DNA of 64,000 nucleotides from an uncultured Ilumatobacter sp. (lineage in GTDB: Bacteria > Actinomycetota > Acidimicrobiia > Acidimicrobiales > Ilumatobacteraceae), in contig CAJQPY010000028.1 of NCBI GenBank assembly GCA_905480335.1, forward strand, positions 1 to 64,000. Reading direction: 5' to 3'. Below the pieces are notes generated by a model that worked only from the letters and a program-made list of their open reading frames with translations, made no database searches and had not been told where the DNA came from. This document shows positions 56,980 to 62,442 of this stretch, piece after piece. The position numbers and the translations under genes are program-made. How positions within the stretch are numbered: position 1 is the first letter of the stretch; each line of letters opens with the position of its first letter.

Positions 56980-58290
56980 TCAGAACCCGAGGCGGTCACC
57001 GACTGTTGCGAGCAGTTCGTCAATCGGAACCCGGACCTGCTCGGTTGTGTCGCGGTCGCGGATGGTGACCGCATTGTCCTCGAGCGAGTCGAAGTCGACC
57101 GTCACGGCCAACGGCGTACCGATCTCGTCCTGCCGTCGGTACCGCTTGCCGATGTTCTGGGTCTCGTCGTAGTCGATCAGGTACCGGTCGGCGAGCAGCT
57201 TGCGCACCTCGTGAGCGAGCGGTGTGAGTGTGTCCTTCTTGCTCAACGGCAGCACGGCGATCTTGTACGGGGCAAGGCGCGGATGCAGCCGGAGCACGGT
57301 GCGGCTCTCGCCGTTCACCTCGTCCTCTTCGTAGGCGGCGAGGAGGAATGCAGCCATGGTCCGTGTGGCGCCCGCGGCCGGCTCGATCACGTAGGGCACG
57401 TAGCGCTCGTTCGTCTGCGGGTCGAAGTAGTCGAGCCGCTCCCCCGATACTGCGGCGTGCGCCTTGAGATCGAAGTCGGTTCGCTGGGCGATACCTTCGA
57501 GTTCGTCGAAGCCCCAGGGGAACTTAAACTCGACATCAGAGGTGCCGGTCGAATAGTGCGACAACTCGTCGTCACCGTGGGGCCGCAGCAGCAACATGTC
57601 TGCAGGGATACCCAAATCGATGTACCAGTTGAGGCGTTCGTTGCACCAGTACTGGTACCACTGCTCCGATTCATCCGGCGGCACGAAAAATTCCATCTCC
57701 ATCTGCTCAAACTCGCGGGTGCGGAAGATCCAGTTCTGCGGGGTGATCTCGTTGCGAAATGACTTGCCGACCTGCGCAATCCCAAACGGAGGCTTCTTGC
57801 GCGACGTCTGCAGCACGTTTGCAAAGTTGGTGAACATGCCTTGCGCCGTCTCGGGGCGCAAGTAGGCATCGGCTCCGGTGCCCTCCACCGGTCCCGCCTG
57901 GGTTTTGAACATCAAGTTGAACTCGCGGGCCTCAGTGAAGCTGTTCTTCTCTCCACAGTTCGGGCAGATACTGGGATCGTCGAGCTTGTCTAGCCGGAAT
58001 CGGTTCTTGCAGTTCATGCAGTCGACAAGCGGATCCGAAAAGTTTGCCAGGTGACCTGAGGCCTGCCACACCTGCGGCGGACTGAGAACGGCAGCGTCGA
58101 TCAGCACAACGTCATCCCGCTGCTGGACCATCGAGCGCAGCCAGGCTTCCTTGACGTTGCGAAGCAGGAGCGAGCCCAGCGGGCCGAAGTCATACGTGGA
58201 GCGGAATCCGCCATAGATCTCGGCGGATTGGTACACAAACCCCCGACGCTTGCAAAGGGACACGATCTGTTCAAGGTCGGTTGCGGCCAT
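56980..58290 (-). CDS. glyQS: Glycyl-tRNA synthetase (dimeric class II)
   Basis: 436 residues, the eukaryote/actinobacteria-type alpha2 enzyme. N-terminal RRGFVYQSAEIYGGFRSTYD, a Cys-rich zinc-like pair (CMNCKNRF, CPNCGEKN), motif 2 FRNEITPQNWIFRTREFEQM, motif 3 around GATRTMAAFLLAAYEEDE, and an anticodon-binding C-terminal domain (LAPYKIAVLPLSKKD). Essential, cytosolic. Upstream of it, on the same strand, lies recO. Confidence 0.97.
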   Translation of the reverse strand: MAATDLEQIVSLCKRRGFVYQSAEIYGGFRSTYDFGPLGSLLLRNVKEAWLRSMVQQRDDVVLIDAAVLSPPQVWQASGHLANFSDPLVDCMNCKNRFRLDKLDDPSICPNCGEKNSFTEAREFNLMFKTQAGPVEGTGADAYLRPETAQGMFTNFANVLQTSRKKPPFGIAQVGKSFRNEITPQNWIFRTREFEQMEMEFFVPPDESEQWYQYWCNERLNWYIDLGIPADMLLLRPHGDDELSHYSTGTSDVEFKFPWGFDELEGIAQRTDFDLKAHAAVSGERLDYFDPQTNERYVPYVIEPAAGATRTMAAFLLAAYEEDEVNGESRTVLRLHPRLAPYKIAVLPLSKKDTLTPLAHEVRKLLADRYLIDYDETQNIGKRYRRQDEIGTPLAVTVDFDSLEDNAVTIRDRDTTEQVRVPIDELLATVGDRLGF

Positions 58291-58410: not shown

Positions 58411-59139
58411 CTAGTGGCCCTCGAACATCGCAACTGCCCGGAGGCGTCGTTCGATCTGGAACTCCAACGCCTTCGTTGCCAACGATGACACCTCGTGCGT
58501 CGCCGATGATTCTTCTTGATCTAGGGCGTGTTGGAGGCGACCGCCAAGAATGTCGCGCATGAGGCCGAGGGCTACGGAGCTGATCGCCTGCCCCGAACGG
58601 CACGATCGGCAGAGCACACCGCCCTCATTGAGGTCGAAGGCGACCAACGACACGTCGGGTTCAGATTCGTGGCAGCGCACGCATTCATCGAGTTCGGGGT
58701 GGAATCCCTCACGTGCCAGCAGCTTCCAGTAGAAGGCGGGCACGTTCAACGGTGATGGCTTCGCCGCAACGGTCCGCAGCACACCAACGAGCATTTTGTA
58801 GAGCTGCGGATTTGCCTCACGCTCGAGCGACAGCTGATCGACCGCCTCCAGCGCTGCGAGGCCCTGTGATGCCCGGTCGAGCGAAGACAGCATTGGTGAC
58901 AGAGGTTCAACGGCCTCGGCCTGGCTCACGATGTCGAGTTCACGGCCTCGGTACAGCAGAACTTTGACATGGCTCATCGGCTCGAGACGCGCGCCGAAGC
59001 GCGACCGCGTTTTACGAACGCCTTTGGCAACGGCACGGACCTTACCGTTGTCACGCGTATGGAACACCACGATCTTGTCGGATTCACGCAGCTTGTAGGT
59101 ACGCAGCACGACTCCGACGTCGTGATAGAGGCCGCTCAA
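58411..59139 (-). CDS. recO: DNA repair protein RecO
   Basis: Recombination mediator that loads RecA with RecR. 242 residues. The N-terminal OB-fold begins GVVLRTYKLRESDKIVVFHT, followed by a helical domain and a four-Cys zinc site (ECVRCHES, VLCRSC). The start overlaps the upstream UppS-like gene by 4 nt. recO beside uppS is usual in actinobacteria. Confidence 0.95.
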   Translation of the reverse strand: MSGLYHDVGVVLRTYKLRESDKIVVFHTRDNGKVRAVAKGVRKTRSRFGARLEPMSHVKVLLYRGRELDIVSQAEAVEPLSPMLSSLDRASQGLAALEAVDQLSLEREANPQLYKMLVGVLRTVAAKPSPLNVPAFYWKLLAREGFHPELDECVRCHESEPDVSLVAFDLNEGGVLCRSCRSGQAISSVALGLMRDILGGRLQHALDQEESSATHEVSSLATKALEFQIERRLRAVAMFEGH

Positions 59140-59753
59140 CCGACCGCCTCGTCGGAGTCGTCAAGCCCGCCGAAACGACGCTCCCGTTGAGCGAAGTCGG
59201 CGATCGCCTCAACGAGGTGATCCTTCGTCAACTCATTCCATTCCATCGGACGGAAAACGAGTTCGCCATATGCGAGTTCCCACACGAGCGAGGGCGGAAG
59301 CCGAGTCGGTTCGCCGAGGACGACGATCAGATCGGGTTCGCAGTCAGCCGGCGCATACAGCATCTCGGATACCGTGGCCTCGTTCACCGGCTCGTCGGCA
59401 GCAAGGCTGGCCATCGCCTGAGCGAATCGGGTCCGACCGTCACCGCAGGGGTCGATGATCACGTGACAGCTGCCGACCATCCGCTCCCAACCCGTGCTGT
59501 CGCTGGGTCGGCTTCCGGGTTCGAACGCCCGCAGCGTCAGAAACGTTGAGCCGGCATTGGCGGCAACGGCACCGAGCTCGCTGACGCGTTCGTCCCAGCG
59601 CTTTACGCCGAGGTCATCCCAGTCCCCGAGCGTGCCCCCGACCACCATGACGTGGCGAAGAAACTGTTGCGTTGATTTGGTTTTGGGCAGCGTGTCCAGG
59701 CGGACGTCCCATTCGGCGCTTGCTGGGGAGGACGTCGTCATCACGACAACCAT
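59136..59753 (-). CDS. Degenerate UppS paralogue keeping the C-terminal RxG tail (NgBR-like)
   Basis: 205 residues. The cis-prenyltransferase fold is visible. RHVMVVGGTLGDW (33-45) aligns with the catalytic HVACIMDGNGRW of the next gene, but the essential Asp is Gly40 and the Arg is Asp44. STFLTLRAFEPG aligns with the FSTEN region. CEPDLIVVLGEPTRLP (138-153) replaces the RTSGER substrate motif. The end, IADFAQRERRFGGLDD, is the classic UppS C-terminus. It lacks about 50 central residues. It is probably a non-catalytic partner of UppS. Start 59753 or Met5. Coupled to recO. Confidence 0.8.
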   Translation of the reverse strand: MVVVMTTSSPASAEWDVRLDTLPKTKSTQQFLRHVMVVGGTLGDWDDLGVKRWDERVSELGAVAANAGSTFLTLRAFEPGSRPSDSTGWERMVGSCHVIIDPCGDGRTRFAQAMASLAADEPVNEATVSEMLYAPADCEPDLIVVLGEPTRLPPSLVWELAYGELVFRPMEWNELTKDHLVEAIADFAQRERRFGGLDDSDEAVG

Positions 59754-59807
59754 TCTTCCACGCCGGGGGTCCAGCGATGGTGTCCCTGGAATGAATCTGT
59801 GCGGGAG

Positions 59808-59813
59808 TACTCT
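59808..59813 (+). promoter_or_regulatory. Putative -10 element (TACTCT) of uppS
   Basis: TACTCT ends 8 nt before the GTG at 59822. Confidence 0.4.
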
Positions 59814-59821
59814 CGTCCCTT

Positions 59822-60547
59822 GTGCCAGCCGATTCAGCGGAGTCCCCCGATGATCGTGCAGCAGGAGGTTCAGAGCTCCACGACCGAGGGCTTCATGTGG
59901 CGTGCATCATGGACGGAAACGGTCGGTGGGCTGGCTCTCGAGGGCTTCCACGCGCTGACGGCCACACCGAAGGTGAGGAGAACCTGGCCCGCCTGGTGCG
60001 CGTGGCGGTCGAACGCAACATCAGCTACCTGACGGTCTTCGGATTCTCAACCGAGAACTGGCGGCGCCCCAGGCCCGAGGTCCGCCACATTCTCGGACTG
60101 CACGAAAAGCTGTTCGGCCGCGTTGCGGAACTCAATGAACTCAACGTCCGCATCCAGTGGATTGGCCGCCCATTCGACTCGCGTGAAGCGCGCACACCGC
60201 GATACGTCCAACGAGCGATCCAAAAAGCGATCGACGACACCGCAAATAACACCGGAATGACCCTCACCGTCGCTTTCGACTACGGCGGCCGCTCCGAACT
60301 CGTCAGCGCCGTCGAGAAGGCCCGTAAAGGCGCGGACGGCATCACGACCGACTCGATTTCACGCCAGCTATACCTGCCGGACCTGCCGCCCGTCGACGTC
60401 CTCGTGCGCACTAGCGGTGAGCGACGCATCTCAAACTTCCTGCTCTGGCAAGCAGCAGGTGCGGCCATCTACTTTACCGACGCTCCGTGGCCGGACTTCG
60501 ATGCCACAGAACTCGATGCGGCGCTCAATCTGGTACCCGGTCGATGA
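59822..60547 (+). CDS. uppS: Polyprenyl (undecaprenyl/decaprenyl) diphosphate synthase lacking the C-terminal RxG tail
   Basis: Makes the lipid carrier for cell-wall synthesis from IPP. 241 residues. Catalytic HVACIMDGNGRWA (Asp31), GFSTENWRRP, FDYGGRSELVSAV, VRTSGERRISNFLLWQ (196-210), YFTDAPWPDF. Homologues continue with about 20 residues ending RERRFGG. This one stops at LDAALNLVPGR, and no RRFGG is found in other frames past the stop. The stop overlaps the helicase start (ATGA). The missing tail is present in the divergent paralogue 68 bp away. Confidence 0.93.
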   Translation: MPADSAESPDDRAAGGSELHDRGLHVACIMDGNGRWAGSRGLPRADGHTEGEENLARLVRVAVERNISYLTVFGFSTENWRRPRPEVRHILGLHEKLFGRVAELNELNVRIQWIGRPFDSREARTPRYVQRAIQKAIDDTANNTGMTLTVAFDYGGRSELVSAVEKARKGADGITTDSISRQLYLPDLPPVDVLVRTSGERRISNFLLWQAAGAAIYFTDAPWPDFDATELDAALNLVPGR

Positions 60548-62442
60548 GCGCGGCCGGCGCCGGCCCGCCCGACATACGCACGCTCTCGGCGCTCTCCACG
60601 GTCACTGCCGCCCTCGACAAGAGCGAAGAGCGACCGGGCCAGCACGAAATGGCGCTGCTCGTGGAGCAGGCGATACTCAACAAGCGGCACCTCGTAGTCC
60701 AGGCGGGGACTGGCACAGGCAAGACCCTCGCATACCTCGTTCCTGCGCTCACCTCCGGCTCGCCGGTGGTCATCGCCACGGCTACCAAGGCGCTCCAGGA
60801 CCAATTGGCGAGCAAGGACCTTCCCTTTCTCGCCGACCACCTTGGCATCGACTTCGACTGGGCGATTCTCAAAGGCCGCAGCAATTACGTCTGCCTGCAG
60901 CGGCTGCGCGAAGTAGCGAACCCGGACCAGGAGCAGCTCGACCTCGACAGGATCGCGGTCACGACGAAGGCCGAGATTGACAAGCTCGCCGAATGGGCCG
61001 GCACCAGCACCACGGGAGATGCAGCCGAACTTAATTGGACGCCAACCGACGCAGCCTGGCGCTCGGTGAGCGTCGGCTCGGACGAATGCCCGGGCGCCGA
61101 CCGCTGCCCGCTCGGTGAGCCGTGCTTCGCCGAACAGGCTCGCCGACGAGCACAGGCCGCCGACGTCGTGGTCGTCAACACCCACCTTTACGGCCTCCAC
61201 GTTGCATCCGAAAACGCGATCCTTCCGGACCACGAGGTCGTCGTGTTCGACGAGGCACATGTCCTTGAGGACATCATGAGCGACACCGTCGGCATCGAGA
61301 TCTCACCGGGGCGCTTCGTTGCGCTCTCCTCAACGATTCGGCGAATTCTGGATGACCCCAAAACCACGGGATCCGTCGCTGAAATCGCCGAGACGCTCCG
61401 AGACGTCCTCTCGCCTCATGTTGGGGAACGACTGACCACGTCGCTCCCCGACTCGATCCAGGAACCACTCGCAGCAGCACGACTCACGCTCGGCAATGCG
61501 AGCGACGAACTCATCGCAATCGAGACGAACAACGAGGATGCCAAGCAGCGCAGGTTGCGCGCCCAGACAATGACGGGACGTTTAATCCAACAGTTGGATA
61601 TCGCCGTCGAAGGTCGTGAGGGCTACGTCGCATTCGTCTCAGGCTCCAGCGACTCCCCACGCCTTGAGGTGGCTCCCCTAGACGTCGGTCCCGTGATGGA
61701 TGAGGGCGTCTGGAAGCGTCGGACTGCGATCCTTACAAGCGCAACGATCCCGTCGTCGCTCGCGAAGCGAGTCGGAATCGCATCTGACTTAGTAGACGCC
61801 GCCGATGTTGGGAGTCCGTTCGACTACGAGTCGAACTCAATGTTGTACTGCGCTGTCCACCTACCGAACCCAAATGCATCGGAATTCCGGGCGAGGGCCA
61901 ACGACGAACTGGAAGCCCTCATTAAGGCCGCCGGCGGACGCACGCTTGCACTGTTCACGAGTTACCGGGCGATGGATGAAGCCGCCGAGGAGATGCGCAA
62001 GCGGCTCACGGTGCCAGTGCTTACCCAACGCGAAATGCCCAAAACTGCGCTCGTGAAAGCCTTTTCTGACGATGAATCAACCTGTCTTTTTGCGACGGCG
62101 GGACTCTTTCAGGGTGTCGACGTGCCTGGAGGAACGTTGTCGCTCGTCGTTATCGATCGGATTCCGTTTCCCCGACCCGACGATCCCTTACTGTCCGCTC
62201 GACGGGATCAACTCGGCCGCACTGCGTTCAGTGAAATCGACATTCCCCGAGCGTCGATGATGCTTGCCCAAGCGGCAGGCCGGCTGATCCGGTCGTCCAC
62301 CGACACCGGCGTAGTAGCCGTGATGGACCCCCGTCTCGGCAAGGCCAACTACCGGTGGGACATCGTGCGAGCGCTTCCGCCGATGAAACGAACCCGGCAT
62401 CGTTCCGAGGTCGAGAACTTTCTACGCCGGATCACCGGATGA
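60544..62442 (+). CDS. dinG: DinG/XPD-type ATP-dependent DNA helicase
   Basis: 632 residues. Walker A VQAGTGTGKTLAYLVP, iron-sulfur cysteines (NYVCLQR, then DECPGADRCPLGEPCF), DEAH box VVVFDEAHVLED, and C-terminal motifs FATAGLFQGVDVPG and AQAAGRLIRSSTDTG. 5'-3' helicase expected to act on R-loops, G-quadruplex or damaged DNA. The ATG at 60544 overlaps uppS by 4 nt. Confidence 0.92.
   Translation: MSAAGAGPPDIRTLSALSTVTAALDKSEERPGQHEMALLVEQAILNKRHLVVQAGTGTGKTLAYLVPALTSGSPVVIATATKALQDQLASKDLPFLADHLGIDFDWAILKGRSNYVCLQRLREVANPDQEQLDLDRIAVTTKAEIDKLAEWAGTSTTGDAAELNWTPTDAAWRSVSVGSDECPGADRCPLGEPCFAEQARRRAQAADVVVVNTHLYGLHVASENAILPDHEVVVFDEAHVLEDIMSDTVGIEISPGRFVALSSTIRRILDDPKTTGSVAEIAETLRDVLSPHVGERLTTSLPDSIQEPLAAARLTLGNASDELIAIETNNEDAKQRRLRAQTMTGRLIQQLDIAVEGREGYVAFVSGSSDSPRLEVAPLDVGPVMDEGVWKRRTAILTSATIPSSLAKRVGIASDLVDAADVGSPFDYESNSMLYCAVHLPNPNASEFRARANDELEALIKAAGGRTLALFTSYRAMDEAAEEMRKRLTVPVLTQREMPKTALVKAFSDDESTCLFATAGLFQGVDVPGGTLSLVVIDRIPFPRPDDPLLSARRDQLGRTAFSEIDIPRASMMLAQAAGRLIRSSTDTGVVAVMDPRLGKANYRWDIVRALPPMKRTRHRSEVENFLRRITG

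Follow-up and report, generated by a model that had tools for sequence, protein, structure and literature searches.

In the window, a 64,000-nucleotide stretch of the genome of an uncultured Ilumatobacter sp., two genes encoding cis-prenyltransferase (cPT)-like proteins diverge from a 68-bp intergenic region (59754–59821, between the listed starts), a spacing that the first-pass annotation had given correctly. The plus-strand gene (uppS, 59822–60547; 241 amino acids, GTG start as listed) encodes a PF01255 protein predicted to be a catalytic subunit that has no C-terminal RxG tail. The minus-strand gene (59136–59753; 205 amino acids), assigned by PF01255, AlphaFold and Foldseek, encodes a putative NgBR-like, non-catalytic subunit with a C-terminal RERRFGG, hereafter called the partner. 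Next to the partner gene lies recO (58411–59139, minus strand), whose start overlaps the partner stop and which marks the ancestral uppS slot; glyS (56980–58290, minus strand; from the ORF list) flanks the locus on the recO side. On the opposite side, a gene for a dinG-like helicase (60544–62442, plus strand) overlaps the uppS stop at an ATGA, if its start is taken at 60544 (the ORF is listed from 60487). Such stop/start overlaps were discarded as proof of coupling: ATGA, GTGA or TTGA occurs at the partner stop in 65/92 and at the uppS stop in 59/92 of the pair loci described below, a frequency close to chance because most stops are TGA (85/93 and 77/93, respectively).

UppS matched PF01255 at 6.6e-65 (219.2 bits against a cut-off of 27) over profile positions 1–208 of 219. 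It retains the motifs MDGNG and RTSGERRISN and terminates with LDAALNLVPGR, just short of the RxG tail; no tail-like sequence was found in frame beyond its stop in the window. The partner matched the same profile at 2.6e-13 (50.5 bits, gathering cut-off 27) over positions 127–219 of 219 only, and its C terminus reads AQRERRFGGLDDSDEAVG. Opposite MDGNG of UppS it carries VVGGT, which places Gly in the column of the catalytic Asp, and opposite RTSGERRISN it carries VLGEPTRLPPS. Neither chain combines catalytic residues with RxG, as a homodimeric-type enzyme would: UppS is tail-less and the partner has no catalytic Asp. Instead, the locus presents both features of a heteromeric cPT, namely a subunit with an intact active site and no RxG, and a second subunit with RxG and no Asp.

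AlphaFold modelled the partner with a mean pLDDT of 86 (over 90 in the core) and UppS with a mean pLDDT of 85. Two helices of the UppS model, those between strands two and three, have no counterpart in the partner model, consistent with the earlier remark that the neighbour is shorter in the middle. The 30-odd residues that precede the fold in the partner were modelled with low confidence and, on inspection, contain no long hydrophobic stretch. All 50 best Foldseek matches of the partner were cPTs (one labelled only ISPT), with probability 1.00 and query TM scores of 0.48–0.57. A profile built from 12 partner relatives aligned over most of its length with an E. coli UppS chain (profile 16–167 on residues 39–246). 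Pfam, by contrast, covers the C-terminal half of the neighbour only, a qualification to the claim that it aligns along the same fold. The partner profile scored ordinary UppS chains at 2.8e-20 versus a best E value of 6.3e-5 for human NUS1 chains, and no NUS1 chain was among the 50 best Foldseek matches. By sequence the partner is nearer to UppS than to NUS1, so although it appears to work like NgBR, we do not class it as a member of the NgBR/NUS1 family.

To survey this arrangement in related genomes, as the first-pass annotation had proposed, we aligned 93 distinct loci that hold the complementary pair with E. coli UppS, whose numbering is used throughout. Sixty-six come from GTDB records, out of 80 loci listed of 142 found, and the rest are the window's own locus and its relatives; 12 rows in which one of the genes was absent or truncated by the end of a contig were left out, and identical partner C termini were counted once. 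In UppS, the following columns are constant in 93/93 loci: D26, N28, R30, W31, R39, H43, F70, S71, E73, N74, W75, R77, E81, R194, T195, S196, G197, E198, R200, S202 and N203. The partner never has Asp at D26 (Gly in 92/93, a gap in one) and never Arg at R194 (Val, Ile, Leu or Ala); its R30 column is acidic in 78/93 and its S202 column is Pro in 92/93. Some active-site residues persist in the partner, namely Arg at R200 in 55/93 and Ser at S71 in 22/93, and the W31 and W207 columns are kept by both proteins (92/93 and 93/93, respectively, in the partner).

The C termini divide in the opposite direction. The RRFGG tail is present in 92/93 partners, the exception being a broken gene (L140, in genome G042), and in none of the 93 UppS proteins is the G244 column of the tail occupied by Gly. 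After the WPDF motif, UppS of the pair loci continues for 12–24 residues (median 14), compared with 22–46 in tailed UppS (25 of 26 rows measured). Twenty-nine aligned rows have no partner, including three tail-less UppS at contig edges (L141, L142 and L145); the other 26, all tailed, have Gly at G244 in 26/26 and Arg at 242 in 25/26. Recurrence in 93 distinct loci argues that the pattern is not due to chance. It also extends well beyond the window what the first-pass annotation had described for one locus: a UppS with catalytic motifs and no tail, beside a neighbour that has Gly for Asp, has lost RTSGE and retains the tail. A tail surviving as a relic to be reached by frameshift or read-through was discarded as an explanation, a pattern search for a tail-like string over 25 codons starting at the UppS stop giving 0/93. 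At one locus only (L116, genome G162), UppS ends in ISSFQRDKQR, which resembles an eroded canonical tail that has lost FGG. The UppS of L120 has R-Q-G within a shorter, unaligned C terminus, and this is absent from its nearest relatives (L088, L089, L090 and L106).

Outside the tail, the E213 column stood out. Glu occupies it in 93/93 partners, in 11/93 tail-less UppS and in 26/26 tailed UppS (27/29 if the three contig-edge rows are included), which suggests a position surrendered by most catalytic subunits, though not all. E. coli Glu213 presumably lies near the dimer face; we found no mention of this residue in the open-licence PMC literature searched. A strict split at Glu213 as a universal rule is ruled out by the 11 UppS that keep it and, together with Arg at R200 in 55/93 partners, these indicate that the division is not clean at every residue.

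We then considered how far the pair extends. In the family Ilumatobacteraceae, 208 of 221 genomes have a PF01255 match, and none of the 13 without one is over 84% complete. By hand count, 191 of the 208 have at least two matches and 17 a single one; tail extents were taken from the matches listed, in which any full-length copy would be expected among the top ranks. Four of the 17 carry a single full-length copy (G006, G020, G225 and G226), and the match in G004 is a fragment akin to the G006 copy. In five (G058, G104, G113, G184 and G191) the sole match is a tail-less UppS located at the edge of a contig. For the remaining seven, a partner-profile search recovered the partner: G044, G063, G068, G080, G208 (as a fragment), G042 and G075. 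The last two hold damaged partner genes beside a tail-less UppS, with three in-frame stops in G042 (77% complete) and with one stop, next to undetermined bases, in G075 (93% complete). In the four genomes with a full-length UppS (G006 and G226 being 72 and 85% complete), the same search found only that UppS and one match too weak to be convincing. With 0/93 UppS of pair loci having Gly at G244, the survey revealed no relative that combines a tailed UppS with the paralogue.

Beyond the family, tailed UppS is the norm. In the order, 141 of 142 genomes have a PF01255 match and, among the matches listed, all reach profile position 219; the only match in one of these genomes (G325, 8.3e-15) falls outside those listed. 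In the class, 86 of 89 genomes matched and, apart from two fragments in G356 and one in G413, all matches run over positions 1–219. In the phylum, 66 of 67 matched, all reaching 219 except in G493 and G473, where a second copy stops at 215 and 217, respectively, and accompanies one that reaches 219. Elsewhere in the class and phylum, genomes commonly have two long UppS matches, which is a different phenomenon. Within the survey, one MAG (G064; L184 and L185) has two tail-less UppS copies on separate contigs, reflecting contamination or a real second copy. Five public MAGs that bear the names Bifidobacterium breve, Ferrithrix thermotolerans or Acidobacteria (L098, L099, L101, L103 and L104) have the partner adjoining recO, and uppS and dinG are also present where the contig reaches, as in Ilumatobacteraceae; the Ilumatobacteraceae-like order suggests that these organism names are wrong.

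A divergent, non-catalytic paralogue might be a functionless uppS duplicate in decay. The partner does evolve faster than UppS (median pairwise distance 1.08 versus 0.39), sits on a very long branch and is broken in G042 and perhaps in G075. However, omega for the partner had a median of 0.11 and a maximum of 0.31, compared with a median of 0.06 for UppS (37 of 42 close comparisons, five having been dropped for dS out of range), and the gene is under purifying selection. An alignment of 47 partner sequences shows no variation in the RRFGG tail or in several columns of Trp, Glu and His. Frequent loss of the partner in complete genomes would favour decay; none was seen, and 191 of 208 family genomes keep two or more PF01255 matches. 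We therefore regard decay as hardly credible. Evolutionary distances of UppS and the partner co-varied weakly beyond those of recO, dinG and glyS (partial rho 0.31 across 48 loci; 0.78 for recO–dinG and 0.23 for UppS–recO).

A maintained partner could still act apart from catalysis, as a separate regulator or scaffold beside a tail-less UppS that is self-sufficient. There is precedent in Methanosarcina MM_0014, which, like close relatives, lacks RXG and is active (PMC8131916). The 11 tail-less UppS with Glu at E213 and the two MAGs with a broken partner gene could be read in the same way. Nevertheless, the neighbour retains precisely the tail that UppS is missing in 92/93 loci, and a stand-alone regulator would need no RRFGG. 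Wherever the family survey met a tail-less UppS with no partner, the contig broke off on the side where the partner would lie, and MM_0014 is described as having a substitute C-terminal TLGG (PMC8131916). We consider self-sufficiency unlikely, with UppS and partner acting jointly as the better account.

Both PF01255 matches in the Ilumatobacter genome (2.95 Mb, 51 contigs, 94% complete) fall at the 59136–60547 locus, and a PF01255 profile search of this genome found no second full-length UppS. The genome also has two PF00953 (MraY/WecA family) genes, the products of which use the carrier lipid. With these genes present and no other cPT found, the pair is the expected source of the wall carrier, unless another UppS is encoded in the 6% of the genome that is missing. 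The same facts speak against a heteromeric cPT whose product is not the peptidoglycan carrier but, for instance, a polyprenyl of greater or smaller chain length. That reading draws on eukaryotic heteromers, which make long chains of over 70 carbons (PMC7839719 and PMC7573591); an archaeal heteromer is reported to make C45–C50 (PMC8131916), and we judge a different product very improbable.

The complementary loss and retention of motifs, the coexistence and synteny of the two genes, purifying selection on the partner, its predicted fold and the absence of any other cPT match in the genome led us to conclude that the two genes very probably encode the subunits of a heteromeric undecaprenyl diphosphate synthase. 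The first-pass annotation had proposed a heteromer resembling DHDDS/NgBR, and this reading gained support. Of four observations it had named as contradicting the idea, three were looked for: a second full-length UppS in the genome, relatives combining a tailed UppS with the paralogue, and a paralogue not scoring as a cPT. None was encountered, the paralogue reaching 50.5 bits against a cut-off of 27 and its 50 best Foldseek matches being cPTs.

In the mechanism that we propose, UppS would bind farnesyl diphosphate, isopentenyl diphosphate and Mg2+ and perform the chemistry. The partner, with the same fold but without the catalytic Asp and with few other active-site residues, would pair with UppS over the usual cPT dimer face. 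Its C-terminal RERRFGG, probably together with Glu at the E213 column, would insert into the UppS active site and so contribute the part that each ordinary bacterial UppS subunit gives its twin; by parallel with DHDDS/NgBR, this should complete the active site. In the human enzyme, the backbone of the NgBR RxG holds the phosphate at S2 and touches DHDDS residues E81, N82 and R85; R290H in this motif lowers activity, and the complex turns over ~400-fold faster than DHDDS alone (PMC7573591). By our own reading of the alignment, the UppS linker S-T-E-N-W-x-R, with S71, E73, N74, W75 and R77 in 93/93 loci, may correspond to the positions of DHDDS E81, N82 and R85. As yeast Nus1 is described as having no canonical RxG (PMC7573591), the tail is not all that such a partner gives. 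We infer that the two proteins form a physical, obligate heterodimer with the tail in the active site, that UppS is inactive or weak alone, and that the product is the wall carrier of about C50–C55.

Gene order indicates how the pair may have arisen. In loci with a single full-length UppS (L003–L020), recO adjoins UppS in 16 of 18, the two exceptions (L019 and L020) carrying an RTSSE-type UppS; dinG, where in reach, is divergent from uppS (L004, L010, L011, L014 and the in-family L017). In the pair loci, partner and uppS lie on opposite strands in 93/93 and, judged by stop positions, recO and the partner share one strand while uppS and dinG share the other, in 93/93 as far as the contigs reach. 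The uppS–dinG order holds in 92/92 pair loci reaching dinG, and glyS–recO in all 68 reaching glyS. Set against the relatives, this order places the non-catalytic partner, not the catalytic UppS, in the relatives' uppS slot beside recO. The first-pass annotation was right that recO is the usual UppS neighbour, and the placement of the partner in that slot refines its reading.

In a quick tree of partners with tail-less and tailed UppS (77 rows, with E. coli as sole outgroup), partners fell among tailed Acidimicrobiales UppS with support of 92, on a very long stem of 5.08 changes per column; this placement fits the synteny, although long-branch error could have produced it. Tail-less UppS formed one clade (19 rows, 100/100 support) on a long stem outside other Acidimicrobiales UppS. 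An origin inside the latter, by duplication, was not rejected (p-AU 0.508), and the tail-less UppS may stem from either duplication or acquisition. Of the earlier claim of duplication and division of labour, the second half is backed by complementary motifs at 93 loci; duplication is not established. A single origin of the pair was likewise not rejected (p-AU 0.151), while the unconstrained recO+dinG+glyS tree requires two changes.

Not every member of the family has the pair. Genome G020, a family member, has one UppS, which is tailed and occupies the recO slot, in the ancestral gene order. In genus g42 (G225, G226 and G227; L157, L158 and L159), recO directly adjoins dinG and the cPT genes that would separate them are absent; elsewhere in G225 and G226 there is a full-length UppS of the RTSSE...FPW type, which groups with that of G025 from another family. 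We do not claim this genus as a natural experiment in co-loss of the pair: its genomes group with the single-UppS G020 and so may never have possessed it. Two genus-mates, G006 (L115) and G004 (L183), have an alternative RTSSE-type UppS and a fragment like it, respectively; the dinG contig of G004 ends where the pair would lie, and neither recO nor dinG was found in G006 (72% complete).

Among known systems, human DHDDS/NgBR (NUS1) and yeast Rer2/Nus1 likewise join a catalytic cPT with a non-catalytic protein of the cPT fold, the C terminus of which, in DHDDS/NgBR-type systems, reaches the active site over the dimer face (PMC7573591). According to the same source, a membrane domain occupies the N terminus of human NgBR and a helix-turn-helix domain the C terminus of DHDDS; neither is apparent in the bacterial pair. 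Unlike yeast Nus1, the bacterial partner has a canonical tail, RRFGG; the human and yeast products are long dolichols, and the bacterial subunits are encoded by divergent neighbouring genes. Methanosarcina mazei MM_0618/MM_1083 is a prokaryotic two-subunit cPT for a glycosyl carrier lipid (PMC8131916), but archaeal, and is likened here by description rather than residue by residue. Homodimeric bacterial UppS (E. coli IspU and other Acidimicrobiales) shares fold and catalytic residues with the plus-strand protein and, in Acidimicrobiales, the recO neighbourhood with the pair; it differs in being a single gene with both catalytic residues and tail. A heteromeric cPT pair is also known from Archaeoglobus. 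MM_0014 resembles the window's UppS in lacking RXG and, unlike the proposed pair, is described as active without a partner, with its own TLGG (PMC8131916). Heteromeric cPTs are reported from fungi, animals and plants (PMC7839719); bacterial cPTs are described as homodimeric, and heteromery is tied to long-chain products (PMC7839719 and PMC7573591). No bacterial heteromeric cPT was found in the open-licence PMC literature searched, and one may be reported elsewhere. We rate the pair as sharing the working principle of known heteromeric cPTs, in a domain of life that is new by the literature searched.

Judged from the synteny and the restriction to one family, with trees that covered bacterial sequences only, the pair apparently arose independently of DHDDS/NgBR. 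Ilumatobacteraceae probably evolved an obligate heteromer of their own, in which the recO-operon UppS became a tail donor and the tail-less, dinG-side UppS the sole catalyst. If so, small bacterial subunits would be available for studying the role of the RxG donor, with disease relevance for NUS1 and DHDDS. A bacterial heteromer in an essential wall pathway would separate heteromery from long-chain synthesis. The family would also show an evolutionary route to the split, since a tailed relative with the ancestral order (G020) persists within it, and its members would divide labour as DHDDS and NgBR do, at an essential step of wall-lipid synthesis.
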